Part shown: positions 15,866 through 50,508 of the stretch, piece by piece | Layout of the letters: each line of letters begins with the position of its first letter | How positions within the stretch are numbered: position 1 is the stretch's first letter | NCBI GenBank assembly: GCA_025266875.1 | Contig: JALLLT010000007.1 | Coordinates: forward strand, 248,001 to 312,000 | Length of the DNA stretch: 64,000 nucleotides | Origin: Fennellomyces sp. T-0311 | Taxonomy: Eukaryota > Mucoromycota > Mucoromycetes > Mucorales > Lichtheimiaceae | Direction of reading: 5' to 3' | Position numbers and translations under genes: made by a program | Notes under the pieces: model-generated | The model's input: the letters and a program-made list of their open reading frames with translations, nothing else | What the model was told of the DNA's origin: nothing | The model's database searches: none

Positions 15866-17464
15866 TTATTTGATATAAAAGTCCTCAGTAGTCTGGCAGC
15901 CAAGATTGTTGAACATTTTATCCAAAGCTTCTTGGGGGCTGATGCGCGGCTCATCACGCTGGAAGTGTTTCAGAAGTATGATACCGATTATTTTGCAAGA
16001 GCCATCAGTCAACCTTCTTGCAACTGGGGAGAAATAAATATGACTATAACCAACAATGACATAGTCATGTACTCTTGGAACCACACTGTCAAATACGACA
16101 CCCAAAATGACACACTCGTCGCATTCTTCAGTGAGGGAGAGTGGCAACACTGGTGAGAGAAACTGCAGATGATTGTCTGGTTTGTAATAATGCGTGGAAT
16201 AGCAGTTTGATGTTTGAAGTATGATCCGTTGACTCCAATCCAACGCCTCGCTTTCGTCACCGAAGTCATCCATTGAGCTTATAATTTTCGTAACATTGTC
16301 CCTTGCTTTCTCTATTCGTTCGTCGTCTTTGAAGACATCGAAATTGTTGTATTGGATGGGGTGTATGGTGTGGTATCGGCAGCGCATATGTAACACCATA
16401 TTCTCGCCTATCATATAATCGCAATTCTGGTCCAGTGTAGTGTCAGAAATTGGCCAAGCTGAGTGTACTCCAGCAATGCCTGTCCACGAAGGAAGGCCAT
16501 AGGATCCCATGGTCGTCGTAAAGATAGGCTTTCCATTCCAAGAACGCAGCACCGACCCAAAACACATGAGCGATAAATCTCTTTGGGCCAAGTGTCGGTA
16601 AAATGCGTTCATTGCAGTGGACACGTCGCTGTCGTAATCAACGTCGATGGAAATAATGTCTGCAAAAATGTTGGCCAGCGCATATATCTTGTCGTGTTCT
16701 TTCGTGCTTGTACGTCTGTGCGCCCAATGGAAGACTTGGTTTGCGCTTTTCAGGGTACGTTCATTGAATCCGAGCATCATGTTGGTCAGAAGGTCGTTTT
16801 CCTTGATTGTGTCACCTTGTTTGATATTAGCAAGAGACCAAAAATGGGTGTTTCGTCCAACAACCAACATCCGCGTTGACATCATGACTTCCTCCAGTGT
16901 CCAGCTCCGTTGGAACCACAGTGAATCCACCATTTGATCAAGTGCTTTGTATTTAGCTTCCGTATATCCGTATACCGAGTCCACACGGTCGAAATCCTCG
17001 GAATCCTCAATGTTGATTTCGGGGACCAAGGCAACTGTGTGACGCGCGCTGCTGTAAATGAGATGCATTTGCTTGATTTCGCGATGCTTTTCTGCCTTGT
17101 TGGTCTGGTCGATGCAGATCTTGTCGTACCACAAGTATTCAATGCCAAAGTCCTTGCATATCTGCTGGAGGAGGTCATCGTATGTCGCGTAACAGCTGTT
17201 CACTCTTCCAACCTTTCCTCTGGTAATTTCGTGATATCCATTGTCAACGCAAACATGTTCCCCGTTTTCAAGTTTCTTGATATCGCCTGACTGCTCCCAG
17301 CAGTACGATAGGGTATGGTAGCCGTCAACAGCATCGGTGCCAGGAACCTTTTGCCAGTCCGAAGTACGGATGAGCCATGTGGGTCTGAATTCGCCTCCCT
17401 TGGAGTTGTACTCAGTGTAGTTTGGATCGGCTACTCGTTGCGGTCTTACGTATTCGATATACAT
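15866..17464 (-). CDS. HET-domain protein A
   Basis: A 532-residue protein with an N-terminal HET (heterokaryon incompatibility, PF06985) domain. Motifs: YHTLSYCW at 49-56, LWYDKICIDQ at 111-120, the IYSSAR helix near 137-141 and LWFQRSWTL at 182-190. The HET fold is related to TIR domains and in ascomycetes triggers regulated cell death; in early-diverging fungi the role is unknown. No NACHT, ankyrin, WD or other partner domain follows, and the C-terminal 330 residues match only the paralogues here. Single exon; the ATG at 17464 is shared by all four copies. Its variable stretch after SYCWEQSG resembles HET C, the middle is almost identical to HET B, and the end resembles HET D. It has a unique insertion (NLGCQ) before the last residues. 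Confidence 0.88.
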   Translation of the reverse strand: MYIEYVRPQRVADPNYTEYNSKGGEFRPTWLIRTSDWQKVPGTDAVDGYHTLSYCWEQSGDIKKLENGEHVCVDNGYHEITRGKVGRVNSCYATYDDLLQQICKDFGIEYLWYDKICIDQTNKAEKHREIKQMHLIYSSARHTVALVPEINIEDSEDFDRVDSVYGYTEAKYKALDQMVDSLWFQRSWTLEEVMMSTRMLVVGRNTHFWSLANIKQGDTIKENDLLTNMMLGFNERTLKSANQVFHWAHRRTSTKEHDKIYALANIFADIISIDVDYDSDVSTAMNAFYRHLAQRDLSLMCFGSVLRSWNGKPIFTTTMGSYGLPSWTGIAGVHSAWPISDTTLDQNCDYMIGENMVLHMRCRYHTIHPIQYNNFDVFKDDERIEKARDNVTKIISSMDDFGDESEALDWSQRIILQTSNCYSTHYYKPDNHLQFLSPVLPLSLTEECDECVILGVVFDSVVPRVHDYVIVGYSHIYFSPVARRLTDGSCKIIGIILLKHFQRDEPRISPQEALDKMFNNLGCQTTEDFYIK

Positions 17465-17499
17465 GCTTGCGGCAGACTACTCTGTGGTTCAAGGGGATA

Positions 17500-18760
17500 A
17501 AACACCAAGCTGTATGGGACAACGCACAGTTGACTCTTGCAGGCGCCGGTGAAAAGAACGAAAGAGAAGGAAACGAAAGGAAAAAATGGGCATGGTTCTC
17601 TTGTATAGTGTCACAGTGTAACGTTTGCAGCCAAGCCCATACTTTATCAAGGTATACAGAACTGATGGAGTTGTATGTCGTTCAACCAGCTGTTATCTCG
17701 CTTGTCATTCTTGCTGTCGCTCAGTGCATGTGATGGAGTAGGACGACAGAAGCGAGATCAGTGGATAGCGTGTTTGGAGCTTGCGTACGAAAAAGCTTGA
17801 TTTCCGTGGTCGAATACCCACCATGGGGCATGTTAACGCTGAATGGATGTTACGATGAACAACGACCCTTTTAAGTGGTAAAGAGCGGCGGGAGTATCGA
17901 TCTGGTAGTGCAATAAAAAAAACATGTTCTTGTCAGAGTCTGATGCTAGTGCTTCCTTGGTGCCAGCTAATGGATAACACATGCGCCAATCTTTACTTAT
18001 AAAGCATTCTGCTCCTCGACTCTTTTTTTAGACATGTACCAAAACCATCTCACGAGAGCTGATCAAAACGATAGACTCTGCAATGCGATTTGGAAGTGCT
18101 GTTTACTTTAACGGCCTTAGGTACACTCAAGCTAAAGTCAGCACAGCTAATCAAATGCCGGTGTCACTATGACATAAACACTAGCAGACACTCAAGAAGA
18201 CCGTAAAATGTAAAAACAGGAGGAAGTCGCCAAAGAAAGCAAGTGCGCTGCTTGGGTCCGAAGAAGGGAAGCAGAAAGTGTAGACCAAGTCATGTAGTTT
18301 GCTTTCATTAGGTCAAGCACGAAAGGACACAAAAAGATACTCGCATGATAAAATAAACATGCTGTATGACGAAGGTGAAACGTGTAATGGTATACAGCAC
18401 GGTCATGCGTTGATGCAGAAGATCATACAGCAATCGTCAATGTGAGCACTTCATATATACTTCCCAGTCAAGACATGTTGTTACGTATTATGTATCAGCC
18501 ACAAAGAGCAAACGGCCGTAAGAATTGAGGCCACAGTATAAGATCACTGCAAAAGTTTCATGCTGATGCATGTCCCTTAATGCCACATTGGAAATGTTCA
18601 TAGCGGTTATGCGTCAAGTAAGCGTAGCATGAAAACGCACTCGTTAGGCGGAAGAGTAAAGGAAAAAGAAGGCAGGATATCGGATCAAAAGTGGCTGCCC
18701 AGGCGGCGCAACAGTTTGTCTCGTTATTGCTGTTACCATGTTTGTTATGCATTCATCGCT
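17500..18760. repeat. HET A upstream flank with inverted HET fragment
   Basis: The flank of HET A matches the flanks of HET B (27700-28860), HET D (47600-48900) and the left window edge. At 18235-18335 on the plus strand lies a decayed HET coding piece equivalent to KSANQVL through RTSTKEHDK, in opposite orientation to HET A. No other coding potential was seen. Confidence 0.6.
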
Positions 18761-19213
18761 CTCGCCGTGCTCATCATTGTGCTTTATACTAACCGCGCTT
18801 CATTCAACTCTCAGTGCTGATTCCTTCAATTGACTCCTAATTTCCAACGCAAGTACCCTAAGTCCTTCGTTTATGACTGGAATTATTGGGATTAGGAGCT
18901 TGACTATTAAAAAGTTCAAGTCGAAGCTAGTGATTCGCATTATCTCGTGCTGGCACTCAATACCATGCGGTAAATCTTTGTTTAGTAGGTAGTTCCTTCG
19001 CATTTTCCGCACCGTATGCTAATGTCGGTTTATGTGGAATAGCTTAAGCCTATAGAAATGCCTTAGTGCACAAAACTAAACATCTTCTTCCATCCCGTTG
19101 GTATAGTACCCCATACCAATTTGCAGCACCTTCTCTCTCTCACATATACTTGTTAAACCGTATAGGATACACATTGTCCTTTCCCCTTGTAAATATCATC
19201 ACACATTTTTGCC

Positions 19214-19850
19214 ATGTACATATTATTCACGCAAGGGCCTAGCCTTTCGCATTCGCCAGCAGACGCTATAGTGGTAAGTAGCTTTTCTTAGAATTGCCTA
19301 GCATCCGATAGCTAACTTATTTTCACAAGCAATGAATTCCAATTGCTCAATTTTTTCCGCAGTCCATTACCGTAGAACACAGTATATACCAGTAAGTATA
19401 ACTTGTCTGTGATCTACCACACTTCGAAAGTTAACTTACTTTTGGAGTCACTCGGTCTTTCCTCCTCCCAAGATGCATCCTGTCTCACAAGGCAGCACAT
19501 CCTCTGGTGTCCCTGATTGCTGCTCTCACAGGTGGTGAGAATACTAGGCTTTACCTAGCGTCCGTGTCGGCTACGCGTGGACTGGTCCAGCATGTCACTG
19601 GGGTCCTCCCCCACAACTGAATCCCTGGGTTTTATTTCCAGTTGGAAGGTGTTATTCATCGCCGTCTGCAATAGTGTCCCAGTTAAGGTGGGTGGGGGAG
19701 AAAGGTAGCAGGCTCGAGGGACAAGGACTCCCGTCACAGTTTACGATGCAACGTTGGATGGACAGGTATGCTACTCTTTGAATCCTGGATGCAGATACGA
19801 TGTGGTGTGGAAGACAAGCAAGGTTCCAGCAATCCTAGGTATATCATCAT
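19214..19850 (+). CDS. Possible small multi-exon gene inside the left arm
   Basis: Good splice sites string together plausible exons: ATG 19214 to GTG before GTAAGT at about 19274, then an exon at about 19363-19391 bounded by a TTTTTTCCGCAG acceptor and a GTAAGT donor. An exon near 19472-19606 follows (ILSHKAAHPLVSLIAALTG and onward), and a later exon-like frame sits at about 19725-19850 (TVYDATLDGQVCYSLNPGC). I do not recognise the protein. The mirror copy at 46500-47190 carries frame-breaking indels (4 nt lost near 47008, an extra base near 46600), so one arm is decayed. The link between exons 3 and 4 is unresolved. Confidence 0.3.
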
Positions 19851-20149
19851 GGTGACTGAAGGTAAATGCCCGCATAGCAACGCTGCAAATAATTTTCGGT
19901 GAATTTTGGTAAATGATTTTTTGAAGTGGCTAAACATAAGCTTTTCAACCGCTTGAGTTGCTAAAAATTGTAGTACAAGTGGTTAGAAAGCTTATGTATG
20001 ACCGCTGTAACCACTTTTAATCACCAATATTATTTACAGTGCAACACGTATGCAACGGTGAACTAACTGGTTGGTATGCTGTTTAGACTAGCAAGCCCAA
20101 TGGTTTCGGATAACTTCATGCGATTTTCAATACCTATATCGTATTTTCG

Positions 20150-20510
20150 ACACACACCATCATCCATGGCTACATACCTTTCCTTAGTCCTTGTTTATAT
20201 CCGTTGCTATTGCGATATCAATAGCTGTACAGTTATCAATTGCCTTATTTGCTTGGGTGTGCAACCTTGTTCCGGCTTTACGATCATGCAGGGAAACTCC
20301 ATTAACTAAGGCTCTGTATGGCCTTCGACCTCATTGACATTAGATGGCAAGGCTATTAGAGACTCGGCCATAACGTGGATCTTTGGGCTATTAGACAAAA
20401 ATATTCATCTTCTCCGCCCCGATTCATCATCATTATAAATAGAGAGTAGGTTTCCCCAATAAAACAGAATCTCATCTTTGTTCTCGTCATTCGAAAGCCT
20501 TTTCTCGTTA
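20150..20510. repeat. Dispersed repeat, four copies in the window
   Basis: This block recurs at 51110-51480 in the same orientation, and at 45950-46300 and 39120-39430 in inverted orientation. The copies share the stretch around GGATCTTTGGGCTATTAGACA and the track running into CTCGTTAAGCGATACCA. It partly overlaps the last exon of the small secreted-protein candidate. Confidence 0.65.
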
Positions 20511-20859
20511 AGCGATACCACAGTGATCTCAGTGGGGGAGCAGTCCTTTGTTGATCCACCTTTTAAACCATGTCCACGGGATCCCATATCATCCAGGTCA
20601 GTGCCCTAATACTTTTTCTTCCACCGGTCCACTGCTCCCAACCCCGCACATGAGCCTTAGCCAGCGGATGACGACGTGATGAAACAAGCAAACCAGTAAT
20701 GTAATATTAACAATATACACTTACCAATGCAGCCAAGCCTCCTTGGTCAGCTACGCAGAGGACGCTTGACTGAGAGATATGCATAAAGATCCGGTATGGA
20801 CCGACAATATGTACATGATGACAGACAACGAGCAGCAAACACGCGGCAAAGCCCTTCAT
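20405..20859 (-). CDS. Candidate small secreted protein in the left arm
   Basis: Two exons, 20859-20725 and 20605-20405, give 111 residues. The signal-like N-terminus is MKGFAACLLLVVCHHVH. The second exon encodes a hydrophilic tail (STKDCSPTEITVVSLNEKR and on). No family is recognised. The acceptor ATTAG has no pyrimidine tract, which weakens the model; the donor GTAAGT is strong. In the mirror copy (45537-46040) a one-base change at the end of exon 1 and a one-base loss in exon 2 break the frame. So this may be the surviving copy, or both may be decayed. Confidence 0.35.
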
Positions 20860-21345
20860 CTTGATGTCTTTAGCGCGAAATGGCGAAGTGCATCCAACGT
20901 ATACAGATTTGCCCCCTTGTGCTTTTCAGTTGTGAAAAAATGTAGGATTTCCTAGTCGGCCTCTTCCACGGAATGCAGTGGTTGTATTTCTGTCTTATTT
21001 CTGCAGCCCGTCTTTCGCAAGCAGTGCAACAAGTTGTCGGCACAACCTTCAGCCTAACATTTGCATCTCACGGGTGTCAACACAAGGATCGCAGAGAGTC
21101 AAAATGTATACATTGCTATTACGTACAACGATAGCGAATAAAGCATTCCCTTTTTATCCAAGCTGTGCTGTCCTCTTTATATGTTCCCTACACTTTTTAG
21201 TTTTATTCACAAAGCGAGTTGCGGATCGAGTGATTTATTTCTTTCATCAGATTTTGCAATGGAGGATGTCCATCTACTATTATGAGCTCTGAATGCTCGG
21301 TAGCCATTCTTCGGTTGATATACCCAGATACCGTTCAATCCTTAT

Positions 21346-23065
21346 GGATGAAGACGCTCGTCATAGTTTTCATCTTAATTAGATCTCCATTTTTGTTTAA
21401 ATCCGGTTTGTTTTGATCATGCGTTCAGAATCCATGCCAAGTTGGACTTGTCGCGAAACGAGCGGTCTCAAGCGTCGATCCTAAGGAAGTTCCAGCGTTC
21501 AATGATATAGGATGTATGGCTCGCTATCCAGTAGATCACTTCATTGGCCGTCACCGCATGTTTTGAGTCGTATAGATAGACTGACTCTACCCAAGCGCAT
21601 CTTTCTTTTTTATTATTTTACTTGACCCGCTGCAGGATTGCCCAATTTACGTTACGCGGTGAGAATTCATGTGAAAATCTCAGACATGCGGACGCGTAGA
21701 GCCCACATGGTCATGGGAACCGCTGACGTCGCCCTAGTAATAAGTTGCGCAGCGCCTGCCTCCGTTTCCGGTTCTTTCATTCAAACTTGCATTGGAGGAC
21801 CAGGCTTGAGAGGTTCTTTTTCTGACGAAGGGGTAGCTAGTGGCGATGGAGCCTCCATGATCTCATGAGCGGTTAAGCCGCTATGCGGCGAGTATAATAC
21901 CCCGCCTGGTTCAGTTTTTGGTGTCTTTGAGGGCTGTCCTTGGCCTTGACAAATTCCGATGGGGTGACAGACGCCGTTGCGGATGCTCACTTGCTTCATT
22001 GCAACATTGGTAGATGCCTGAGCTGATTTGCCTCCCTGCCGGAATGCAAGTGCGCAAAGGACTGGGCTTGAAGGCCAAACTTGACGAAGGTAGTCGGCGG
22101 TGGCGAAGGAGCTCTTGTTTCGGCAAGGGTCAAGTTGCCTGCCACACCTGCCCAGATCAGTTCTTGGTGGCTTTGGAGGATGTCCTGGCCTCGACAGATC
22201 CCGAGGGAATAGAGTGTGGGTCGCTTTATGCGGCCGTTGTCTGGCCCAATCGGTGGTTGCCTCAACTGAATTGCCTTTGCTGATGTGACAATGATGAACG
22301 CACTACACTATCCATGAAGCCTTGGTTGCTGAATGATGTGTCATATTTCTGAGGAGCATCTTTTTTATTCTAATAGAGTACCTTTTTTTTGGTTGTACCT
22401 TTTGTATTCTAATAGTGTACCGTGTTTTTGTTTGTAACCTTTGTATTCTAATAAAGTACCTTTTTTTGTCTGTAGCTTGAACGTGTCCTTGTATCCCATA
22501 ACCACTTGGGGTTCTTCATTTCTGGTCCATGGTTAATGCCATCATTGTGAAAGGCTGTTGTGATTTGATCTTGTTCGACACCATCTTGGCGCTTGACATA
22601 CTTTTAGCTTGATTTTTACAAACTTGATGGAATATTAAAGGTTGCTACGCGATACGGACGTAGCGATTGTGTGAAGTGCTGCTTGTATTCAATGCACTCA
22701 AGGTGGCTATTCATTTCGTGTGAGCTTCATTGAACTTTCAGTTTATGATTTTAGGCAGATAAAGTTATGAGGTGTGGCGCGCCAGAACTCTTCTTGCTCT
22801 TCCTGCTTTCCCTACGACCGCTTCCAGAACTACATGCTTCTTTAAAGATTCACACACTCTCAACTATAAGCAAAAGGTAACAATTTGGCCATTGCCCACC
22901 TGGAGATTCCGACGGCAGGGTCACCATAAAGTTATCTAATATGTCTAAGCGGTGCTCCAGTTTAAGCCTGCGTGACATGTTTGCGTATTTGACATGATGG
23001 TGGTGTCTGGGTCATCCGTAAGCCAGCATTATTAGGCCATGTCCTTCCCTTGAAACCAATACAGA
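21346..23065. repeat. Left-arm-specific insertion with internal repeats
   Basis: The mirror arm lacks this 1.7 kb and has an unrelated 185 bp piece (44878-45062) instead. Inside, two diverged tandem copies of about 230 bp lie at 21790-21985 and 22060-22270 (both run from GGCTTGA through ACGAAGG to CTCGACAGATCCCGA or CTTGACAAATTCCGA). Three copies of a roughly 42 bp unit containing TATTCTAATA and GTACC lie at about 22367-22480. It is more GC-rich near 21640-22280 than the surroundings. No transposase or LTR was recognised. Confidence 0.6.
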
Positions 23066-24440
23066 GCTACGGCACAAAGGTGGTAAAGAATGCGACAGGA
23101 TCACTGAATACCAAAGTACTCGGATCGGCATCTTTATAACCGACAATGGCAGAAAGTTTACTTTCAAAGGATACGATTGGGAAACGGAACGAACTGTATA
23201 CGTCACTTTTCAACGCTTGATCCAACACATATGCAAAGAATTAATACAGTGGCCGCTTCATATAATGATGTTTTATATAATGATAATTCGATATAACAAT
23301 ACCATTTTCGATGCACTAAAACGGTAGTCACTGTCGAATCCCATTTTAAAATAACGATACTTTGGTATAACGATAAAATTTGGGCCGCACCATGGTATCG
23401 TTATATAAAGCGGTCACTGTAGAGCAGTTCGCAACGTCCCGAATTACGGGTAAGTCGTGCAAGGAGAATATCAAAAAAGCGGCATATCGGATTCAATCGC
23501 ATTGATTATCTCGAAAGAGACGAGTTTAGGAAAACTGACATTTCTGATGATGCGTTGGTGGAAGAGCTATATCAATAACGACCGCTCAGACCACCACCAC
23601 GTGGCCTCAGGATTTTCATATTCATTGGAGCAAAGATGAGGATTATTAGGATCCATACGAAGTAGATGAAGAGGAAGTCAAAAGTAATGCCATCATTTTC
23701 ACGACATTGTATAATCTGCTTCAAAAACAAAACACGCTTGAGGTCTTTCATTTGGCTAATACATCAATCAGAGAAAATGAACGGAAATCATGGAGATTTC
23801 TACCGAAACGAAGCCAAACACTTTGCCGACAACCTCAACTTGCTTAACTTAAGCGAGCTCTCGCTTACTGGCCACATATTTCGAGGCTGCAGTCGGCAAT
23901 TATTTATCCCAATGCCCCGTTTTTGAAATACTTGAGGTCACTATTGCTGTGCAGAGTCTTACTGATTCAGATACGCGCATCACGCTGGTCAGCATAACAT
24001 CACTGAAATCCACTGCCAACTTTATACCGTGATGAATACAGCTCTTCCTGGGGTGACTGTACGAATGATTATGCAAATAAAAAAAAACGGCATATACAAC
24101 TTGCTTATCGCCTTGGCAGCTAGCAGTAGCTACCAATTGGAACACTTTTCGTTCAGCAGCAACATTTATGGCGAAGAGCAAGTTTATCAGAGTCTGGACT
24201 AATGGATTCTGTACTGAAAGTCAACAGATCAACCCGCTCCTTGCGACGTTTATTGCTCCATCATAGCAGTTACTTTGATCCAGAGGGTTATTTCGATGGT
24301 TATGAAGGCGCGACATTAGACAGCCATAGAAGAATCACATGGGATGAGTTGAGTCACTTTACGGCATCAACCCGAAGCAGTCATATTGAGGAGTTTGGAT
24401 CGAAAATATAGAGTTACCAACCACCATTGGCTGAAATAAC
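23066..24440 (+). pseudogene. Decayed divergent HET-like gene and unknown fragment
   Basis: The frame around 23075-23240 (TERTVYVTFQRLIQHICKEL and upstream) resembles the HET-gene stretch YVTYDELLQQICKDF. It is more diverged than the four intact paralogues and is cut by the MITE at 23247. Downstream, broken frames at 23420-24440 include a leucine-rich piece (LLNLSELSLTGHIFRGC) that may come from an F-box/LRR-like gene. The mirror copy spans 43600-44877. Nothing here can encode a full protein. Confidence 0.4.
23247..23419. mobile_element. MITE, 173 bp, pogo/Tc1-like ends
   Basis: The element has imperfect terminal inverted repeats of about 23 bp: CAGTGGCCGCTTCATATAAT at the left end and, read inward from the right end, CAGTGACCGCTTTATATAAC. 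It is flanked by TA on both sides (23245-23246 and 23420-23421). CAGT ends with a TA target duplication are typical of pogo/Tc1-mariner elements. It has no coding capacity. The mirror element at 44610-44692 occupies the same site. Confidence 0.8.
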
Positions 24441-24649
24441 TCTTTGAAAGAGCTGCATTGTGTCAGATCCATATATCTAGAAGAAGAAAAGTTGGTCGCT
24501 CCTTCCTTTTTTTTATTAAGAGCATGATCGGTGGGAAAAGTCTCTCAAGGGACAACTGATCAGGCGTGCCATGGGGGGGATAAAAATATGTCTGCCAGAT
24601 ATCAAACATAAATTGAACACTGCTATCCCAAAGAATGATAGAGGAAAAA

Positions 24650-25445
24650 GCGAAATATATGGTAGTATATAGTAGATTGATGTGCGATACGTCGAGCAAC
24701 CTATATGGTCATCCCACATATTCACGGATGGTATACATAGTAGCATATGCTTTTGTAATCACTGGATTTTATTTAGGCCTATTTTGCCACTACCGTCAAC
24801 TTGACAAAACCAGGTACCATGGTACATACCCGAAACACTGCATGTGATTCTGAAAGAAAAAGTGCTCCATACCGTCGCACATCTCAGTACTCAGCACCAT
24901 CGCCAGACACTTCTTTGAGTCCTTTCCGTCCGTCCACAGCTTCATAATTTCCTCCTTGATCAGCTTATCCTGGTACAGTTGGTCTCCACCACCCAACAAG
25001 ACATGAAAGAGCGCAACATTGTGCCGATCAAGCACGTCTTGCCACAGTGACGCTTCCTTCCCATCAATTTGACCTTTGTCTCCTGTGGAATATCAGAGAA
25101 ACCACTGCACGAGTAAAACATGAATTTCATGGACTCGTTGTATACCGGCAAATGGAATTCCTGCGGTCCGAATGCCTCGCTCTGGCATGTCACCACTTGT
25201 CTGGTGGGCTCAAGCGGAAGACGCAAATCGTATCGCCAGAAATGGCACTGACCGCGGAATGAATCCAACATTTCGCCTGGAATGCTAAAGGCGCGTGCCT
25301 CGTTGTGCTCATTGCGTAACTGCACTTGCAGTTGCGGAGCTCCGTGGTCTGTTGACACAAGCAGGCACGAACCGCGATAAGTGCGTGTACCGTAGCCAAT
25401 GCCAATGTACCGAAGCAATGGGCCGCACACCACACGCTCTGGATT
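24650..25445 (-). pseudogene. PhoD-like phosphatase remnant, copy 2
   Basis: The longest remnant of a fungal PhoD-like (PhoD_2 type) metallophosphatase. Segments in order are GPLLRYIGIGYGTRTYRGSC, FWRYDLRLPLEPTRQVVT, MKFMFYSCSGFS, then in another frame LWQDVL and FHVLLGGGDQLYQDK, and finally PSVNMWDDH, the equivalent of the metal-binding NIWDDHD block. The GGGDQ and DDH blocks identify the family. Frame changes between segments, for example near 25085, and the missing N-terminus show that it is a pseudogene fragment. Confidence 0.7.
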
Positions 25446-25549
25446 GAGTTTTAGGCTGTTGAATTGTTACACTGGAACGTTACCATAAGGCTGCATAGCG
25501 GGGGTGCCAGGAAGTTCCTTTTGTTGGAAAAGGAAAAAAGAGAGTTTTT

Positions 25550-25930
25550 CATGTGTTACGCCCTGAATAAGTGGCATTTCGTATCACCGTGCTTCCCGGC
25601 ACGTGCAACAGTGGCTGCCGAAAGTGTAGCACACTTTTAGTCACTTTTTCTTTGAATCCGAGCATTGTGCTTACTAAAAGATCGTTTTCCTTGCGTCTGT
25701 TACCTTGTTTGATGTTTGCAAGAGACCAAAGATGAGTTTTTCTTCGGACGATCCATATCCGGGTTGACATCATGAATTCTTTAAGTATGTATCTCTGGGT
25801 CCTTTAAACCATAGTACATTCTGTATACACTCAAGTCCTTTGCTTTTAGCTTCAGTGTCTACTGTAACCAGAGAATGCTCTCAAAGGTTTTGACATTATT
25901 AAACAGTGCCATACTCAGAAATCCTACTCG
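25550..25930 (-). pseudogene. Decayed HET coding fragment, 3' flank of HET B
   Basis: Broken frames on the minus strand include MMSTRIWIVRRKTHLWSLAN and IKQGNRRKENDLL, the central HET-gene segment, running into unrelated sequence just before the PhoD-like remnant. Same arrangement as 15480-15850 and 42060-42400. Confidence 0.65.
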
Positions 25931-25995
25931 ATGGCCATATCTCGGGATTTGTTACGATACTACATGTCGAGGGACATTATAACAGCACATGTGCT

Positions 25996-27582: not shown

Positions 27583-27699
27583 GCTGCGGCAGACTATTCT
27601 GTGGTTCAAGGGGATAAAACACAAAGCTTTACGGGACAGTGTACAGTTGACTCTTGCAAGCACCGGTGAAAAGGACGAAAGAGAAGGAAAAATAGGCAT

Positions 27700-31056: not shown

Positions 31057-31100
31057 TTGCTCCTGTGAGATTGCCTTCCTCCCTGTTTCTTCTCTTTGTT

Positions 31101-37720: not shown

Positions 37721-37814
37721 TGATGACGATATGCATCTTCGTACAACGCTCATTACGATGTCAGGGGTTGCCGCGACAACCCCAACGGTTTTCAGGCTGT
37801 CATGGCTGTCAATG

Positions 37815-39999: not shown

Positions 40000-40419
40000 C
40001 GGTCGTTGTTCATCGCAACATCCATTCACCGTTGACTCGTCGTAATCTCAACACATCTCACGATTGGCGTTCGACCACGGAAATCAACTTGTTTCGTACG
40101 CAGGCTTTGAACACGCTGCCCACTGATTTCACTTCTGTCGTTCTACTCCATCACATGCACTGAGCGACGCCAGAATGGCTATCCAGATAACAGCTCGTTG
40201 AACGACACACAACTCCATCAGCTCTGTATACTTTGATAAAGTATGGGCTCGGCTGCAAACGTTACACTGTGACACTATACAAGAGAACCAAGCCCTTTCG
40301 TTTCCTTCTTTTTCCTTCTCTTTCGTCCTTTTCACCTGCATCTGCAAGAATCAACTGTACACTGTCCCATAAAGCTTTGTGTTTTATCCCCTTGAACCAC
40401 AGAATAGTCCACCGCAAAC

Positions 40420-42024
40420 ATGTATATCGAATACGTCACACCGCAACGAGTAGCCGATCCAAACTATACCGAGTACACCTCGAAGGGAGGCGAATTCAGA
40501 CCCACATGGCTCATCCGTATTTCCGACTGGCAAAAGGTTCCTGGCATCGCTGCTGTTGACGGCTACCATACCCTATCGTATTGCTGGGAGCAGTCAGGCG
40601 AGACCAAGAAACTTGGAAACGGGGAACATGTTTGCGTTGACAAAGGGCGCCATCGTATTAAAGTTGCTGTAGAGAAACGTAGAGCGTCCACTTTTTTTCG
40701 AAAGCATAGGACAACGAAAGTGACATACGACAAATTGCTCCAGCGGATATGCAAGGACTTTGGCATTGAGTACTTGTGGTACGACAAGAGCTGCATCAAC
40801 CAGGCCAACAAGGCAGAGAAGCATCGCGAAATCAAGCAAATGCACCTCATTTACAGCAGCGCGCGTTACACAGTCGCCTTGGTCCCCGAAATCTACATTG
40901 AGGATTCCGAAAACTTTGACTGGATGGACTATTTTGGAGAGTGGACCGTAGCTAAGGACAAGGCAATTAATCAAATGCGGAAATCACTGTGGTTCCAACG
41001 GAGCTGGACACTGGAGGAAGTCATGATGTCAACGCGGATGTTGGTTGTTGGACGAAACACCCATTTTTGGTCTCTTGCCATTATCAAACAAGGTGACACA
41101 ATCAAGGAAGACGATGTTCTGGCCAATTTGATGCTCGGATTCAAGGAGCGTACAGTGAAAAGCGCAAACCAAGTCCTCCGTTACGCCCACTTCCGTACAA
41201 GCACGAAAGAACACGACAAGATATTTGCGCTGGCCAACATTTTTGCAGACATTATTTCTATCGACGTTGATTACAACAGCAATGTTTCCGCTGCAATGAA
41301 CGCATTTTACCGACGCTTGGCCCAAAGGGATTTATCGCTCATGTGTTTTGGGTCGGTGGTGCTTCCAAGTGGAGAGGATATGTTTAGGATGACCATGGGA
41401 TCCTATGGCCTTCCTTCTTGGACAGGCGTTGCTGGATTGCACCCAGCCTGGCCAGTTGCTGATACTACACTGGACCAGAATGGCGATTATACGATAGACG
41501 AGAATATGGTGTTACATATGCGCTGCCGATACCACACCATACACCCTCGCAAATACGACAATTTCAATGTCTTCGAAGAAGAGGAACGAGCGAAGAAAGC
41601 AAGGGATAATTTTGTGAAGATTATAAGCTCAATGGATGACTTTGGCTACGAAAGCGAGGCGTTGGATTGGAGTCAATGGACCATGCTCGAGTTAAACTGC
41701 TGTTCCACCCATTATTACAAACCAGACAACCATGCTCGATTCCTCTCACCGGTGTTGCCACTCTCCCTCACCGAAGAATGCGACGAGTGTGTCATTTTGG
41801 GTGTCGTATTTGACAGTGTGATTCCAGCAGTAGTCGATGATGCCTTTGCTGATTATGATCACACTTATTTCTCGCCAGTCGCAAGAAGGTCGACCGATGG
41901 CTCTTACAAAATAATCGGTAACATACTTCTGAAACATTACCAGCATGATGAGCCGCGTATCAGCCCACAAGAAGCTATGGATAAAATGTTCTGCGAGACT
42001 ACTGCACACTTTTATATTAAATAA
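40420..42024 (+). CDS. HET-domain protein C
   Basis: A single-exon HET-domain protein of 534 residues. HET motifs: YHTLSYCW at 49-56, LWYDKSCINQ (the conserved I and D of the usual KICIDQ are replaced by S and N), IYSSARYTVAL and LWFQRSWTL. The variable stretch KKLGNGEHVCVDKGRH groups it with HET A but contains an extra 8-9 residues including RRASTFFRKHR. The middle (VAGLHPAWPVADTTLDQN) groups it with HET D, and the end (AMDKMFCETT) with HET B. The CINQ variant falls in the conserved motif and could alter activity. Role otherwise inferred from the domain. Confidence 0.87.
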   Translation: MYIEYVTPQRVADPNYTEYTSKGGEFRPTWLIRISDWQKVPGIAAVDGYHTLSYCWEQSGETKKLGNGEHVCVDKGRHRIKVAVEKRRASTFFRKHRTTKVTYDKLLQRICKDFGIEYLWYDKSCINQANKAEKHREIKQMHLIYSSARYTVALVPEIYIEDSENFDWMDYFGEWTVAKDKAINQMRKSLWFQRSWTLEEVMMSTRMLVVGRNTHFWSLAIIKQGDTIKEDDVLANLMLGFKERTVKSANQVLRYAHFRTSTKEHDKIFALANIFADIISIDVDYNSNVSAAMNAFYRRLAQRDLSLMCFGSVVLPSGEDMFRMTMGSYGLPSWTGVAGLHPAWPVADTTLDQNGDYTIDENMVLHMRCRYHTIHPRKYDNFNVFEEEERAKKARDNFVKIISSMDDFGYESEALDWSQWTMLELNCCSTHYYKPDNHARFLSPVLPLSLTEECDECVILGVVFDSVIPAVVDDAFADYDHTYFSPVARRSTDGSYKIIGNILLKHYQHDEPRISPQEAMDKMFCETTAHFYIK

Positions 42025-42059
42025 AGCACATGTGCTGTTATAATCTCCTTCGATATGCA

Positions 42060-42400
42060 GAATCATAACAAACACCTGAGAGATGGCCATCGAGTTGGAT
42101 TTCTGTGTGTGGTACCGATTCATAATGTCAAAAACTTTGAGCGCATTCTCTGGTTACAGGAGCCATTGAAGCTAAAAGCAAAGCACTTGAGCGTATGCAG
42201 GATGCACTATGATATAAAAGTCGCGGAGATACATACATACTTGGAGAATCCATGATGTCAACACGGATATGGATCTTCGGATGAAACACTCATCTTTGGT
42301 CTCTGACAAACATCAAGCAAGGTAACAGACGCAAGGAAAACAATCTTTTAGCAAGCACAATGCTTGTGTTCAAAGGAAAGAGACTAAAAAGGTGTGTGCA
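42060..42400 (+). pseudogene. Decayed HET coding fragment, 3' flank of HET C
   Basis: Mirror of 25550-25930: broken frames of the central HET segment beginning near 42060 and ending at about 42400, just before the PhoD-like remnant. Confidence 0.6.
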
Positions 42401-42574
42401 CTTTCGGTAGCCACTGTTGCACGTGCCGGGAAGCACGGTGATACGAAACGCCACCTATTCAGGGCGTAACACATGAAAAACTCTCTTTTTTCCTTTTCCA
42501 ACAAAAGGAACTTCCCTGGCACCCCCACTATGCAGTCCTACGGTAACGTTCCAGTGTAACAATTCAACAGCCTA

Positions 42575-43330
42575 AAACTCAATCCAGAGCGTGTGGTGTG
42601 CGGCCCATTGCTTCGGTACATTGGCATTGGCTACGGTACACGCACTTATCGCGGTTCGTGCCTGCTTGTGTCGACAGACCACGGAGCTCTGCAACTGTAA
42701 GTGCAGTTACGCAATGAGCACAACGAGACACGCGACTTTGGAATTCGAGGTGAAAAGTTGGGTTCCTTTCGCAGCCAGTACCATTTCTGGTGATATGAAT
42801 TGCGCCTTCCGCTTGAGCCCACCAGACAAGTGGTGACATACCAGAGTGAGGCATTCGAACCACAGGAATTCCATTTGCCGGCATACAACGAGTTCATGAA
42901 ATTCATGTTTTACTCGTGCAGTGGTTTCTCTGATATTCCACAGGAGACAAAGGTCAAATTGGTGAGAAGGAAGCGCCACTGTGGCAAGACGTGCTTGACC
43001 AGCACAATGTTGCACTTTTTCATGTCTTGTTGGGTGGTGGAGACCAACTGTACCAGGATAAGCTGATCAAGGAGGAAATTATGAAGCCGTGGACGGACGG
43101 AAAGGATTCAAAGAAGTGTCTGGCGATGGTGCTGAGTACTGAGATGTGCGAAGGTATGGAGCACTTTTTCTTTTAGAATCACGTGCAGTGTTTCGGGTAT
43201 GTACGATGGTACCTGATTTTGTCAAGTTGACGGTAGTGGCAAAATAGGCCTAAATAAAATCCAGTGATTACAAAAGCATATGCTACTATGTATACCATCC
43301 GTGAATATGTGGGATGATCATATAGGTTGC
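42575..43330 (+). pseudogene. PhoD-like phosphatase remnant, copy 3
   Basis: Mirror of 24650-25445. Readable segments are LLRYIGIGYGTRTYRGSC, LRLPLEPTRQVVTYQSEAF, MKFMFYSCSGFSDIPQE, FHVLLGGGDQLYQDKL and PSVNMWDDH. It has the same frame change before the GGGDQ block as copy 2, plus an in-frame stop near 42700. The damage therefore predates the arm duplication, with further decay here. Confidence 0.7.
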
Positions 43331-44609
43331 TCGACGTATTGCACATCAATCTACTATATACTACCATATATTTCACTTTTTCCTCTATCATTCTTTGGGA
43401 TAGCAGTGTTCAATTTATGTTTGATATCTGGCAGACATATTTTTATCCCCCCCCCCATGGCACGCCTGATCAGTTGTCCCTTGAGAGACTTTTCCTACCG
43501 ATCATGCTCTTAATAAAAAAAAGGAAGGAGCGACCAACTTTTTCTTCTTCTAGATATATGGATCTGGCACAATGCAGCTCTTTCAAAGAATTATTTCAGC
43601 CAATGGTGGTTGGTAACTCTATATTTTCGATCCAAACTCCTCAATATGACTGCTTCGGGTTGATGCCGTAAAGTGACTCAACTCATCCCATGTGATTCAT
43701 CTATGGCTGTCTAATGTCGCGCCTTCATAACCATCGAAATAACCGTCTGGATCAAAGTAGCTGCTATGATGGAGCAATAAACGTCGCAAGGAGCGGGTTG
43801 GTCTGTTGACTTTCAGTACAGAATCCATTAGTCCAGACCCTGATAAACTTGCTCTTCGCCTTAAATGTTGCTGCTGAACGAAAAGTGTTCCAATTGGTAG
43901 CTACTGCTAGCTGCCAAGACGATAAACAAGTTGTATATGTCGTTTTTTTTTATTTGCATAATCATTCGTAGAGTCACCCCAGGAAGAACTGTATTCATCA
44001 TGATATAAAGTTGGCAGTGGATTTCAGTGATGTTATGCTGACCAGCGTGATGCGCGTATCTGAACCAGTAAGACTCTGCACAGCGATACTGACCTCAAGT
44101 GTTTCAAAAACGAGGGATTGGGTAATAACTATCGACTGCAGCCTCGAAATATGTGGCCAGTAAGCGAGAACTCGCTTAAGTTAAGCATGTTGAGGTTGTC
44201 GGCAAAGTGTTTGGCTTCGTTTCGGTAGAAATCTCCATGATTTCCGTTCATTTTCTCTGATTGATGTATTGGCCAAATGAAAGACCTCAAGCGTGTTTTG
44301 TTTTTGAAGCAGATTATACAATGCCGTGAAAATTATGGCATTACTTTTGACTTCCTCTTCATCTACTTCGTATGGATCCTAATAATCCTCATCTTTGCTC
44401 CAATGAATATGAAAATCCTGAGGCCACGTGATGGTAGTCTGAGCGGTCGCTATTGATATAGCTCTTCCACCAACGCATCATCAGAAATGTCAGTTTTCCT
44501 AAACTAGTCTCTTTCGAGATAATCAATGCGATTGAATCCGATATGCCTCTTTCTTTGATATTCTCCTTGCACGACTTACCCGTAATTCGGGACGTTGCGA
44601 ACTGCTCTA

Positions 44610-44692
44610 CAGTGACCGCTTTATATAACGATACCATGGTTTTGCCCAAATTTTATCGTTATATAAAACATCATTATATGAAGCGGCCACTG
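44610..44692. mobile_element. MITE, 83 bp, internally deleted
   Basis: Same insertion site and same ends as 23247-23419, flanked by TA at 44608-44609 and 44693-44694. It lacks about 90 bp of the interior. The terminal 35-40 bp on each side are kept. Confidence 0.8.
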
Positions 44693-45536
44693 TATTAAAA
44701 TCTTTGCATATGTGTTGGATCAAGCGTTGAAAAGTGACGTATACAGTTCGTTCCGTTTCCCAATCGTATCCTTTGAAAGTAAACTTTCTGCCATTGTCGG
44801 TTATAAAGATGCCGATCCGAGTACTTTGGTATTCAGTGATCCTGTCGCATTCTTCACCACCGTTGTGCCGTAGCTTCGAGAGCATTCTCTCCGAATTTGT
44901 CGTTCCAGGTGTGTTTGATGATGGCGGCCTTATGGTGGGACATTTGATGAAGACGTTTACGGCGGTACTTTTGGCGAAGAGATGTACGACGAGGGCGATA
45001 ATGACGAAGAAGAAGACGCTAAATATTGTTATGTGGAGTACGGTGAAGGCGAGAAGAAGAAGAAGATAAGGATTGAACGGTATCTGGGTATATCAACCGA
45101 AGAATGGCTACCGAGCATTCAGAGCTCATCCTCCATTGCAAAATCTGTTGCAAGAAATAAATCACTCAATCCGCAACTCGCTTTGTGAATAAAACTAAAA
45201 AGTGTAGGGAACATATAAACAGGACAGCACATCTTGGATAAAAAGGGAATGCTTTATTCGCTATCGTTGTACGTAATAGCAATGTATACATTTTGACCCT
45301 CTGCGATTCTTGTGTTGACACCCGTGAGATGCAAATGTCAGGCTGAACGTTGTGCCGACGACTTGTTACACTGCTTGCGAAAGACGGGCTGCCGAAATAA
45401 GACAGAAATACAACCACTGCATTTCGTGGAAGAGGCCGACTAGGCAATCCTACATTTTTTCACAACTGAAAAGCACAACTGGGCAAATCTGTATACGTTG
45501 GATGCACTTCGCCATTTCGCGCTAAAGACATCAAGA

Positions 45537-46040
45537 TGAAGGGCTTTGTCGCGTGTTTGCTGCTCGTTGTCTGTCATCATGTACATATTGTCGGTCCGTA
45601 CCGGATCTTTATGCATGTCTCTCAGTCAAGCGTCCTCTGCGTAGCTGACCAAGGAGAGTTTAGCTGCATTGGTAAGTGTATATTGTTAATATTACGTTAC
45701 TGGTTTGCTTGTTTCATCACGTCGTCATCCGCTCGCTAAGGCTCATGTGCGGGGTTGGGAGCAGTGGACGGGTGGAAGAAAAAGTATTAGGGCACTAACC
45801 TGGATGATATGGGATCCCGTGGACATGATTTAAAAGTGGATCAACGAAGAACTGCTCCCCCACTGAGATCACTGTGGTATCGCTTAACGAGAAAAGGCTT
45901 TCGAATGACGAGACCAGAAATAAGCTTATGTCTTATTGAAGAAAGTTGCTTTCTATTTATACTGGTGATGAATCGGGACGGAGAAGATGAATACTTTTGT
46001 CTAATAGCCCAAAGATCCGTGTTATCGCTGAGCCTCTAAT
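45537..46040 (+). pseudogene. Broken mirror copy of the small secreted-protein gene
   Basis: The first exon keeps a signal peptide (MKGFVACLLLVVCHHVH) and the GTAAGT donor. One base more before the donor and one base less in exon 2 (near 45835), compared with 20859-20405, destroy the frame. Confidence 0.45.
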
Positions 46041-47599
46041 AACCTTACCATCTAATGTTAATGAGGCCGAAGGCCATACAAAGCCTTAGTTTATGGAGTG
46101 GCCTGCATAATCGTAAAGCCGGAACAAGGTTCCACAAGCGAGCGAATAAAGCAATTGATTACTGTACGGTTGTTGATGTCGCAATGACAACGGATATAAA
46201 CAAGGACTACGGAAAAGCATGTAGCCATGGTTGATGGTGTATGTCGGAAATATGGTATAGGTATTGATAATCGCACCAAGTTATCCGAAGCCATTGAGCT
46301 TGCCAGTCTAACAGCATACTAACCAGTTAGTTCACCGTTGCATACGTGTTGCACTGTAAATAATATTGGTGATTAAAAGTGGTTACAGCGGTCATACATA
46401 AGCTTTATAACCACTTGTACTACAATTTTTAGCAACTCAAGCGGTTGAAAAGCTTATGTTTTAGCCACTTCAAAAAATCATTTACCAAAATTCACCAAAA
46501 ATTATTTGCAGCGTTGCTATGCGGGCATTTACTTTCAGTCACCAAGATGATATGCCCAGGATTGCTGGAACCTTGCTTGTCTTCCACACCACATCGGTAT
46601 CTGCGTCCAGGATTCAAAGAGTAGCATACCTGTCCATCCAACGTTGCATCGTAAACTGTGACGGGCGTCCTTGTCCCTTGAGCCTGTCACCTTTCTCCCC
46701 CATCCACCTTAACTGGGACACTATTGCAGACGGCGATGAATAACACCTTTCAACTGGAAATAAAACCCAGGGATTCAGTTGTGGGCGAGGACCCCAGTGG
46801 CATGCTGGACCAGTCCACGCGTAGCCGACATGGACTCTAGGTAAAGCCTAGTATGCTCACCACCTGTGAGAGCAGCAATCAGGGTCACCAGAGGATGTGC
46901 TGCCTTTTGAGGCAAGATGCATCTTGGGAGGAGGAAAGACCGAGTGACTCCAAAAGTAAGTTAGTTTTCAAAGTGTGGTGAGTCACAGACAAGTTATACT
47001 TACTGGTACCGTGTTCTACGGTAATGGTCTGCGGAAAAAATTGAGCAATTAGATATCATTGCTTGTGAAAATAAATTAGCTATCGGATGCTAGGCAATTC
47101 TAAGAAAAGCTACTTACCACTGTAGCGTCTTCTGGCGAGTGCGAAAGGCTAGGCCCTTGCGTGAATAATATGTACATGGCAAAAATGTGTGATGATATTT
47201 ACAAGGGGAAAGGACAATGTGTATCCGGTCTAACAAGTATATGTGTGAGAGAGACGGGGCTGCAAATTGGTATGGGGTACTATACCAACGGGATGGAAGA
47301 AGAGGTTTAATTTTGTGCACTAAGGCATTTCTATAGGCTTAAGCTATTCTACATAAACCGACATTAGCATACGATGCGGAAAATGCGAAGGAGCTACCTA
47401 CTAAGCAAAGATTTACCGCATGGCATTGAGTGCCAGCACGAGATAACGCGAATCACTAGCTTCGACTTGAACTTTTTAATAGTCAAGCTCCTAATCCCAA
47501 TAATTCCAGTCATAAACGAAGGACTTAGGGTATTTGCGTTGGAAATTAGGAGTCAATGGAAGGAATCAGCATTGAGAGTTGAATGAAGCGCGGTTAGTA

Positions 47600-48924
47600 T
47601 AAAGCACAATGATGAGCACGGCGAGAGCGATGAGTGCATAACAAACATGGTAACAGCAATAACGAGACAAACTGTTGCGCCGCCTGGGCAGCCACTTTTG
47701 ATCCGATACCCTGCCTTCTTTTTCCTTTACTCTTCTGCCTAACGAGTGCGTTTTCATGCTACGCTTACTTGACGCATAACAGCTATAAACATTTCCAATG
47801 TGGTATTAAGGGCATGCATCAGCATGAAATTTTTGCAGTGATCTTATACTGCGGCCTCAATTCTTACGGCCGTTTGCTCTTTGTGGCTGATACATAATAC
47901 GTAACAACATGTCTTGACTGGGAAGTATATATGAAGTGCTCACATTGACGATTGCTGTCTGATCTTCTGCATCAACGCACGACCGTGCTGTATACTATTA
48001 CACGTTTCACCTTCTCATACAGCATGTTTATTTTATCATGCGAGTATCTTTTTGTGTCCTTTCGTGCTTGACCTAATGAAAGCAAACTACATGACTTGGT
48101 CTACACTTTCTGCTACCCTTCTTCGGACCCAAGCAGCGCACTTGCTTTCTTTGGCGACTTCCTCCTGTTTTTACATTTTACGGTCTTCTTGAGTGTCTGC
48201 TAGTGTTTATGTCATAGTGACACCGGCATTTGATTAGCTGTGCTGACTTTAGCTTGAGTGTATCCAAGGGCCGTTACAGTAAACAGCACTTCCAAATCGT
48301 ATTGCAGAGTCTATCATTTGGCCAGCTCTCATGAGATGACTTTGTACATGTCTAAAAAAAAAGTCGAGAAGCGGAGTGCTTCATAAGTAAAGATTGGTGC
48401 ATGTGTTATCCAACAGCTAGTATCAAAGAAACACTAGCATCAGACTCTGACAAGAACATAGTTTTCTTTTACTGCACTACCAGGTCGACATTCCCAATGC
48501 TTTTCGCCACTTAAAATGGTCGTTGTTCATCGTAACATCCATTCACCGATAACACGTCGCAATCTCAATACACCTTATGATTGGCGTTCGACCGCGGAAA
48601 TCAAGATTGTTTCGTACGCAGGCTCCGAACACGTTGACCACTGGTCCCACTTCTGTCGTTCTACTCCATCCCATGCCCTGAGCGGCACACGGCATCATCT
48701 GCTTGGTAGCCCTGATAAAATTTGGGTTTGGCTGCGACGTTACACGACAGTGGCGTAAAGCAAGAGTTACACGACAGCGACATAAAGCAAGAGAATCAAG
48801 TCCACTTTTCCCTCTTTTTCCTTCTCTTTCGTCCTTTTCACCGGTGCTTGCAAGAGTCAACTTTACACTGTCCCGTATAGATTTGTGTTTTATCCTCTTG
48901 AACCACAGAAAGTCTGTCACAAGC
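47600..48924. repeat. HET D upstream flank with inverted HET fragment
   Basis: Homologous to the flanks of HET A and HET B. The decayed inverted HET coding fragment is at about 48050-48145 on the minus strand. The leader just before the ATG at 48925 is conserved among all copies and contains a run of CTTTTTCC/CTTTCG repeats. Confidence 0.6.
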
Positions 48925-50508
48925 ATGTATATCGAGTACGTCACACCGCAACGAGTAGCCGATCCAAACATTACCGAGTACAACTCGAAGGGAGGCGAAT
49001 TCAGACCCACATGGCTCATCCGCACTTTCGACTGGGAAAAGGTTCCTGGCACCGATGCTGTTGATGGCTATCACACTCTTTCATATTGCTGGGAGCAATC
49101 AGGCGAAAAATACCAACAGGCAGATGGAGAATACAGCTTGGTTGACGAAGGGCGTCATATAATAAGAAAAATAAAGAATGGAACGGTGAGCGGTTTTTAT
49201 GTGACATACGACGAACTCCTCCAGCAGATATGCAAGGACTTTGACATCGAGTACTTGTGGTACGACAAGATCTGCATCGACCAAACCAATAAAGAAGAAA
49301 AGCGTCGCGAAATCAAGCAAATGCATCTCATTTACAGCAACGCACGTTACACAGTCGCCTTGATCCCCGAAATCTACATTGAGGATCCTGGAGACTTTGA
49401 CTGTATGAACTGGGTTACACGCAGTACTGAAGCTAAATCCAATGCACTTGATCAAACGCTGGAGTCACTGTGGTTCCAACGGAGCTGGACGCTGGAGGAA
49501 ATCATGATGTCAACGCGGATTTTGGTCGTCGGCGAAAACACCCATTTTTGGTCTCTTGCTAATATCAAACAAGGTGATAAGCAAAAGGAAAACGACCTTC
49601 TGGCCACTGTGATGCTCGGATTCAAGGAGAAAACAGTGAAAAGCGCAAACCAAGTCCTCGTATGGGCACATTTCCGTACAAGCACGAAAGAACACGACAA
49701 GATATATGCGCTGGCCAACATTTTTGAAGACATTATTTCTATCGACGTTGATTACGGCAGCGACGTGTCCGCTGCAATGAATGCATTTTACCGACGCTTG
49801 GCCCAAAGGGACTTATCGCTCATGTGCTTTGGATCGGTGGTGTACCCTTTGGATGGAAGTCCTATAAACACGACGACCATGGGATCCTATGACCTTCCTT
49901 CTTGGACAGGCGTTGCTGGATTGCACACAGCCTGGCCAGTTGCTGATACTACATTGGACCAGAATTGGAATTATACAATAGACGAGAATATGGTGTTACA
50001 TATGCGCTGCCGATACTACACTATACAACCTCGCAAATACAATTTCGATGTCTTCAAAGACGACGAACGAGCGAAGAAAGCAACCAATTATTTTTACAAA
50101 GTGATCGACGCAATGGATGACTTTGGCGACGAAAGCGAGGCGTTGGATTGGAGTCAATGGACCATGACCAAATCATCAGGCTATTATTCCACGCATTATT
50201 ACAAACCAGACCGCCAAACTCAGTTCCTCTCACCGTTGCTGCCACTCTCCCTCACCGAAGAATGCGACGAGTGTGTCATTTTGGGTGTCATATTTGACAG
50301 TGTGGTTCCAAGAGTACATGACGATGTCTTTATTGGCTACAGCCACACCTATTTCTCCCCAGTTTCAAGAAGGTTGAACGATGGCTCTTACAAAATAATC
50401 GGTAACATTCTTCTGAAACATTTCCAGCATGATGAGCCGCGTATCAGCCCACAAGAAGCTTTGGATAAAATGTTCTGCGAGACTACTGAACACTTTTATA
50501 TCAAATAA
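48925..50508 (+). CDS. HET-domain protein D
   Basis: A single-exon HET-domain protein of 527 residues from the shared ATG at 48925. The frame is open upstream to 48703, but that part aligns with non-coding leader of the other copies. HET motifs: YHTLSYCW, LWYDKICIDQ, IYSNARYTVAL and LWFQRSWTL. The variable stretch KYQQADGEYSLVDEGRHII groups it with HET B. The middle (VAGLHTAWPVADTTLDQN) groups it with HET C, and the tail (VPRVHD, ALDKMF) with HET A. Its 3' flank differs from the other three copies and instead matches 2530-2790. Confidence 0.88.
   Translation: MYIEYVTPQRVADPNITEYNSKGGEFRPTWLIRTFDWEKVPGTDAVDGYHTLSYCWEQSGEKYQQADGEYSLVDEGRHIIRKIKNGTVSGFYVTYDELLQQICKDFDIEYLWYDKICIDQTNKEEKRREIKQMHLIYSNARYTVALIPEIYIEDPGDFDCMNWVTRSTEAKSNALDQTLESLWFQRSWTLEEIMMSTRILVVGENTHFWSLANIKQGDKQKENDLLATVMLGFKEKTVKSANQVLVWAHFRTSTKEHDKIYALANIFEDIISIDVDYGSDVSAAMNAFYRRLAQRDLSLMCFGSVVYPLDGSPINTTTMGSYDLPSWTGVAGLHTAWPVADTTLDQNWNYTIDENMVLHMRCRYYTIQPRKYNFDVFKDDERAKKATNYFYKVIDAMDDFGDESEALDWSQWTMTKSSGYYSTHYYKPDRQTQFLSPLLPLSLTEECDECVILGVIFDSVVPRVHDDVFIGYSHTYFSPVSRRLNDGSYKIIGNILLKHFQHDEPRISPQEALDKMFCETTEHFYIK

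Follow-up and report, generated by a model that had tools for sequence, protein, structure and literature searches.

Mosaic histories along the HET-domain genes of a Fennellomyces gene cluster

In the Mucorales fungus Fennellomyces sp. T-0311 (family Lichtheimiaceae), four genes encoding HET-domain proteins, here called A to D, lie within a 64,000-nucleotide stretch of DNA. This stretch (the window) corresponds to C150:248001-312000, C150 being a contig of 1.36 Mb in a genome of 45.6 Mb and 182 contigs; the DNA analysed is that of one genome, in a single assembly of one strain. The genes were found at the positions given in an original prediction made from the letters of the window:

15866..17464, minus strand: HET gene A, an intronless open reading frame (ORF) of 532 aa with a PF06985 match (E 8.6e-20)
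25996..27582, minus strand: HET gene B, 528 aa counted from the MYI start; the frame is open to 27699
40420..42024, plus strand: HET gene C, an ORF of 534 aa with a PF06985 match
48925..50508, plus strand: HET gene D, 527 aa counted from the MYI start; the frame is open from 48703

The start codons of B (ATG 27582) and D (ATG 48925) were set by alignment. All four genes are intronless and score 63.7-72 bits against PF06985 in a profile search (Pfam cut-off 22.5), while no Pfam match to NACHT or WD40 was obtained in A-D at E 0.1.

The original prediction described the four paralogues as three-way mosaics, pairing A with C and B with D at the N-terminus, A with B and C with D in the middle, and A with D and B with C at the C-terminus. 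In a four-way codon alignment, the informative columns are those that divide the genes two against two. There are 91 such sites, 40 of which support AB/CD, 39 AC/BD and 12 AD/BC, and they are strongly blocked, forming 22 runs compared to a mean of 56 and a minimum of 37 in 20,000 shuffles. Leaving out the hypervariable V1 stretch does not remove the blocking (22 runs versus 40 over the remaining 69 sites, p 5e-5, the lowest value that 20,000 shuffles can give), and with 1000 permutations the pairwise homoplasy index (PHI) stands at z -16.5 over all sites and z -4.9 over third positions. The first 31 of the 91 sites are all AC/BD, with no other pairing among them. For nt 0-486 the approximately unbiased (AU) test chooses the same tree, both alternatives having p 1.4e-7, or about 0.0012 on third positions alone. 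AB/CD then accounts for 28 consecutive sites in columns 1001-1321, and is the tree chosen by AU for nt 924-1314 (p 0.009 and 0.0001 for the alternatives); no tree is decided for nt 486-924. Strictly synonymous sites (n=17) comprise 7 AC/BD, 10 AB/CD and no AD/BC sites, and their order is blocked as well (runs p 0.006; PHI p 0.011). The N-terminal and middle pairings are thus borne out. A single topology over the full alignment, which would have spoken against a mosaic, is contradicted by two parts of the gene that back different trees with AU rejection.

The third pairing fared differently. AD/BC sites are enriched towards the C-terminus, making up 7 of the 13 sites after column 1300 versus 5 of the 78 before it (Fisher 1.2e-4), but they are interspersed there with AB/CD sites. 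For nt 1314-1620, AU favours AB/CD, AD/BC not being rejected (0.39) and AC/BD having p 0.025. What A and D have in common is a short variable cassette, VPRVHD, of the V8 type:

16031..16090, minus strand: C-terminal cassette V8 of A (A residues 459-478), of a type found only in D among 19 members compared

Among the same 19 members, the V8 cassette of C is identical to that of gene I, which lies outside the window, and B has a type of its own; a four-residue NNLG insert near the end is present in A only, as opposed to B, C and D. Since the cassettes of B and C differ and the insert is confined to A, there is at most a short A-D patch and no third history. With none of the 17 synonymous sites behind it, this patch does not sustain a three-way mosaic: A-D are a real mosaic, but only two of the three claimed pairings hold.

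The AC/BD block does not end at the start codon. The sequences involved, together with the spacers within the two gene pairs, are the following:

16997..17725, minus strand: 5' module of A, from about -261 to nt 486, pairing with C (31/91 coding and 54/55 upstream sites AC/BD; AU)
about 40160-40911, 27115-27850 and 48680-49392: counterparts of this module in C, B and D, with approximate upstream ends
18035..25604, no strand: spacer X, between A and B, an inverted near-copy of X'
42422..48349, no strand: spacer X', between C and D, with approximate ends

Between -261 and -51, 54 of 55 two-against-two sites are AC/BD, a count that owes its size to the presence of two distinct upstream sequences: from about -270 to -120, A and C are 92 % and B and D 80 % alike, compared to about 51-55 % for A-D, B-C and A-B. 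Aligned in inverted orientation, the spacers X and X' share 96.4 % identity along 1797 nt and 96.0 % along 2105 nt. Windows of 150 nt are mostly at 93-99 %, with patches of 86-87 % at 20149-20450 and 25152-25302, and 1.7 kb of X (21345-23065), the largest ORF of which has no Pfam match, is without counterpart in X'. The coding sequences at the spacer ends are less alike (A-D 84.2 %, B-C 85.8 %, versus 96 % for X-X'), and the drop in identity is located within some 700 bp upstream of A/D and some 400 bp past the stop of B/C.

The flanks of further family members, designated by the letters from E onwards, can also be sorted. Upstream, one type is found in A, B, D and L and a second in C, E, F, H, J and M. 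Downstream, A, B, C, G, L, Q and O differ from D and E, to which K can be added over 27 % of the length. All four combinations are present (first upstream with first downstream type in A, B and L, first with second in D, second with first in C, and second with second in E), which implies at least one exchange across the gene.

Near-identical tracts are also found within the genes themselves, and the following lies in the window:

16166..16516, minus strand: A half of the A-B tract of 350 nt with 3 mismatches, covering approximately residues 317-433 of A; the B half is at about 26284-26634

Inside this tract there are 2 synonymous differences in 69 sites, compared to a proportion of synonymous differences (pS) of 0.217 outside. 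Other examples are A-G (148 nt, 0 mismatches), E-H (132 nt, 0 mismatches) and H-N (282 nt, 3 mismatches), the last between loci 458 kb apart and including a 25-residue in-frame insert in the V1 cassette that is identical in H (C150:453356) and N (C150:911690). The tracts connect separate loci at 10 to 458 kb (A-B, H-N), and the J-P pair spans different contigs. Of 15 tracts, 14 have fewer silent differences than the remainder of the pair would predict, F-I being the exception; the nominal p values (<=0.02) are conditional, since the tracts were picked for their similarity. Several tracts are 0-1 % diverged, below the roughly 4 % of the duplicated spacers.

Features like these could also arise if old, divergent alleles were maintained by balancing selection and recombined at each locus in meiosis, duplications then sampling different alleles without any exchange between loci. 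In Aspergillus fumigatus, het genes do retain old alleles, whose footprint reaches only several hundred bp from the coding sequence (PMC11138114), as far as the consulted part of that report goes, and this resembles the gene-centred drop of identity seen here. The near-identical tracts between different loci (A-B, H-N, J-P) nevertheless require interlocus exchange at some point. We regard allelic variation as an improbable account of the whole, though one that is partly compatible with interlocus exchange, so that the probabilities of the two overlap. A further alternative dispenses with DNA exchange altogether and has hypervariable patches come to imitate common ancestry through parallel selection at the amino-acid level. 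The absence of AD/BC among the 17 synonymous sites, a ratio of nonsynonymous to synonymous differences (pN/pS) of about 0.87 in two windows and a non-significant synonymous PHI in 13 members (see below) would fit. However, the AC/BD block extends 260 bp into non-coding DNA, 14 of the 15 chosen tracts are poor in silent differences and the flank types recombine. Parallel selection is thereby contradicted for AC/BD and AB/CD and could still apply to AD/BC; as a general explanation it is very unlikely.

Ectopic homologous recombination between intronless HET loci, comprising gene conversion and crossing-over, very probably offers the best explanation for what is directly observed in A-D, namely incongruent histories along the gene, near-identical tracts that include silent sites, a 5' module reaching upstream, recombined flanks and a spacer identity far above that of the genes. 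A family of intronless HET-domain genes would trade DNA between its loci, and would have done so recently and probably still do so. Short gene-conversion tracts of about 100-350 bp would carry variable cassettes from copy to copy, the conserved blocks serving as homology. The flanks, too, would be swapped now and then, by crossovers or long conversions located at the genes, and events of this kind may have copied the spacer between the two HET gene pairs as X and X'. Two points here we infer: that the internal tracts arose by conversion and not by double crossover, and that the process continues today. The marks of a family with interlocus conversion are nonetheless found here: different trees for different parts of the gene (AU, PHI) and near-identical tracts, silent sites included, between loci with different flanks. 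The predicted recombination among paralogues is accordingly well supported by trees, tracts and flanks alike. As to its being ongoing, the tracts with 0-1 % divergence speak in favour, and continuing exchange is plausible rather than demonstrated from one genome.

How far does this extend beyond the window? There are at least 87 matches to A in the genome, and of those listed, 48 cover at least 500 of the 532 residues without a stop, to which a hand count adds H and N, each in two pieces. Places with a HET domain above the Pfam cut-off number at least 145, pieces and broken copies included. Open copies at least 70 % identical to A are concentrated on C150 (15 of 17, A included), a contig that makes up 3.0 % of the genome. 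For 13 close C150 members, PHI yields z -23 (third positions z -8.6). Data simulated on one maximum-likelihood tree, each site having its own rate, do not match those observed: the ratio of near to far incompatibility is 0.77 versus 1.01-1.11 and the longest agreement run 101 versus 26-43 (30 simulations), and long painted segments (>100 nt at >=97 % identity, counted per recipient) number 28 versus a mean of 0.7 and a maximum of 3 in 20 simulations. Along the gene, synonymous divergence ranges from 0.12 to 0.52, roughly a fourfold variation (permutation p 0.0014). Among 27 members, taken from the 50 near-full-length open copies, pairs exceeding their own maximum in 60 simulations make up 26/105 within C150, 16/180 of the mixed and 1/66 of the other pairs, where 1.6 % is expected.

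A number of results weigh against exchange between loci. Within A-D, the AB/CD block analysed on third positions alone rejects AD/BC (AU 0.014) but not AC/BD (0.18). The flank types are not fully clean, in that the upstream region of J weakly matches A and D, with 36 % coverage at 69 % identity, and the downstream match of K to D and E covers the 27 % already mentioned. The 15 tracts were picked by hand, being 13 of the 17 listed plus B-D and F-I. In the wider family, the run test on 27 members leaves only 3 of 351 pairs above the overall maximum of 60 simulations, while PHI gives a weak signal when all 27 are taken together (p 0.018; 0.088 on third positions) and no significant one for the 14 other members. 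Cassette types assort almost freely among 19 members (adjusted Rand index -0.06 to 0.22), but the many small types, 16 for V2 and 17 for V8, lower this index by themselves. Finally, the 13 C150 members give no significant PHI on strictly synonymous columns (n=57, z +0.2), and copying switches are not above the single-tree simulation (301 versus a mean of 326). The last two results are what one would expect of a near-star radiation on one tree, in which homoplasy and rate variation produce spurious conflict. As the site-rate-matched simulations miss the observed ratio, run lengths and segment numbers, we consider this explanation highly improbable.

Chimeric assembly of repeats has in its favour that the evidence comes from a single assembly without reads. 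The short blocks, however, recur over 13 open-frame genes on a 1.36 Mb contig, and a similar signal is present in another genus, protein-level PHI being significant in three overlapping Phascolomyces sets (p 0.001, 0.013 and 0.001). Two Circinella sets gave no signal at protein level, a further point on the negative side for exchange; an assembly artefact is at any rate scarcely credible.

What the exchange might be good for can be approached through the protein. HET domains are held to be TIR-related cell-death domains (PMC10197012, PMC12881547, PMC10890737, each consulted in part). In the predicted model of A (predicted local distance difference test score, pLDDT, 91), a second comparison gives TIR domains as the best alignment for the N-terminal part, with low Z of at most 4.8, Foldseek having returned no significant match; for the C-terminal part of the family protein, structure comparison gave no clear fold match. 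The variable cassettes fall on two hairpins of this model (strands 77-83 and 86-92; 455-465 and 468-483), on the helix at 168-178 and on loops. They occupy the same places in the members compared, show in-frame length changes and are diverse while adjoining blocks are alike. pN/pS peaks at about 0.87 in two windows, no 20-codon window exceeds 1, and the overall ratio of nonsynonymous to synonymous substitution rates (dN/dS) is 0.40. This pattern denotes relaxed or diversified patches within a constrained protein and is no proof of positive selection.

A sensor with reassorted specificity patches would fit these data, and neutral exchange in a repetitive family would fit too. That the exchange is real but a neutral by-product of repetitiveness, a view that competes with the functional step only, agrees with the overall dN/dS and the lack of any window above 1, and less well with co-located cassettes, in-frame length changes and diversity beside alike blocks; it is a fair possibility, though less likely than not. 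With regard to function, an immune role of the A-D family is plausible. We tentatively suggest that the products may be TIR-like, cell-death-type sensors of varied specificity, perhaps directed against intruding organisms and not partner strains. Mucorales are stated not to form heterokaryons via somatic fusion (PMC4133162, consulted in part), which makes defence against intruders at least as likely as allorecognition. A fuller proposition might hold but seems to us rather doubtful: an early-diverging fungus would maintain TIR-like cell-death sensors as a combinatorial repertoire, gene conversion reassorting some eight variable cassettes among the loci, and would use them to recognise intruders (bacteria, viruses, fusion parasites) instead of partner strains. 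Fusion parasites of Mucorales exist. The original prediction, in calling the mosaic three-way and linking it to an ongoing immune diversification, exceeded the evidence.

Both HET expansion in Mucorales and exchange among HET paralogues are already known. In a Lichtheimia corymbifera group of 56, 52 are HET proteins (PMC4133162), and Apophysomyces has several HET genes (PMC5604411); HET genes were called absent from all other zygomycete genomes then sequenced (PMC4133162). These are, as here, Mucorales with multicopy HET genes, also in tandem in Lichtheimia; the consulted part of the Lichtheimia account describes no mosaicism of HET genes, unlike what is seen here. In Podospora anserina, the hnwd (HET-NACHT-WD40) family undergoes concerted evolution of its WD repeats (PMC1805685, PMC2873952). 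According to the parts of these reports consulted, HET-domain paralogues exchange DNA there as in A-D, with a proposed role in diversifying recognition, but the units exchanged are WD40 repeats of NOD-like receptor (NLR) proteins, whereas in the A-D family it is cassettes within the HET domain that move, along with the C-terminal part and the upstream region. P. anserina het-B (Bh), which combines HET, HAD and a lectin fold (PMC10890737), is like A-D a single-exon HET protein of non-NLR architecture. Its specificity has been shown, in the portion of the paper seen, to reside in the divergent C-terminal lectin-fold part, but it is a two-gene allelic system and no shuffled family. The A. fumigatus het genes, judging from the consulted section (PMC11138114), likewise have their diversity restricted to the gene with a surrounding few hundred bp; they are allelic, mapped by crosses and in three cases tested by expression, while the variation here is between loci. 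Mosaicism of HET-only genes was not found in the literature searched, which excluded most subscription papers and bioRxiv preprints.

If true, a HET-only family that shuffles cassettes in Mucorales would be a second route to diversity beside the WD repeats of NLRs. The classic use of HET in heterokaryon control should not apply in this group, so that the proposed immune role of HET genes becomes testable. Patchwork copying is a way to new receptor-like combinations known from other immune gene families, and ordinary gene trees of such HET families can mislead.

Some further observations concern the family and its surroundings. Only 9 of the 98 proteins found carry a Fennellomyces name (some entries being nameless) and none is placed on a contig as long as C150, despite dozens of closer open copies in the genome. 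The protein collection thus seems to miss most of this HET family, perhaps because of repeat masking. In gene J (C150:173269-174915) the family start ATG reads ACG, with in-frame stops just upstream; J is possibly a start-lost copy, yet one that has near-identical tracts in common with other members. Window positions 1-852 are the upstream region of E (C150:246271-247902), a fifth close HET gene that starts about 100 bp left of the window, and have 71-75 % identity to stretches upstream of D and C, with similarity to A and B as well. Remnants of HET genes are found downstream of three of the genes:

15495..15657, minus strand: degenerate HET fragment downstream of A, about 70 % like the middle of the genes
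25630-25792 and about 42168-42373: similar degenerate HET fragments downstream of B and C, about 70 % like the genes' middle

Between B and C there are an ankyrin-repeat ORF (30256-30573, plus strand) and a DDT-domain ORF (34335-34826, plus strand). To the right of the cluster, ordinary genes encode a Glucose-6-phosphate dehydrogenase C-terminal domain (55558-56301, minus strand) and a ribosome-binding GTPase (MMR_HSR1; 57624-58631, plus strand), and a gene with a CotH kinase domain (PF08757) lies at 59595-60677 on the plus strand.

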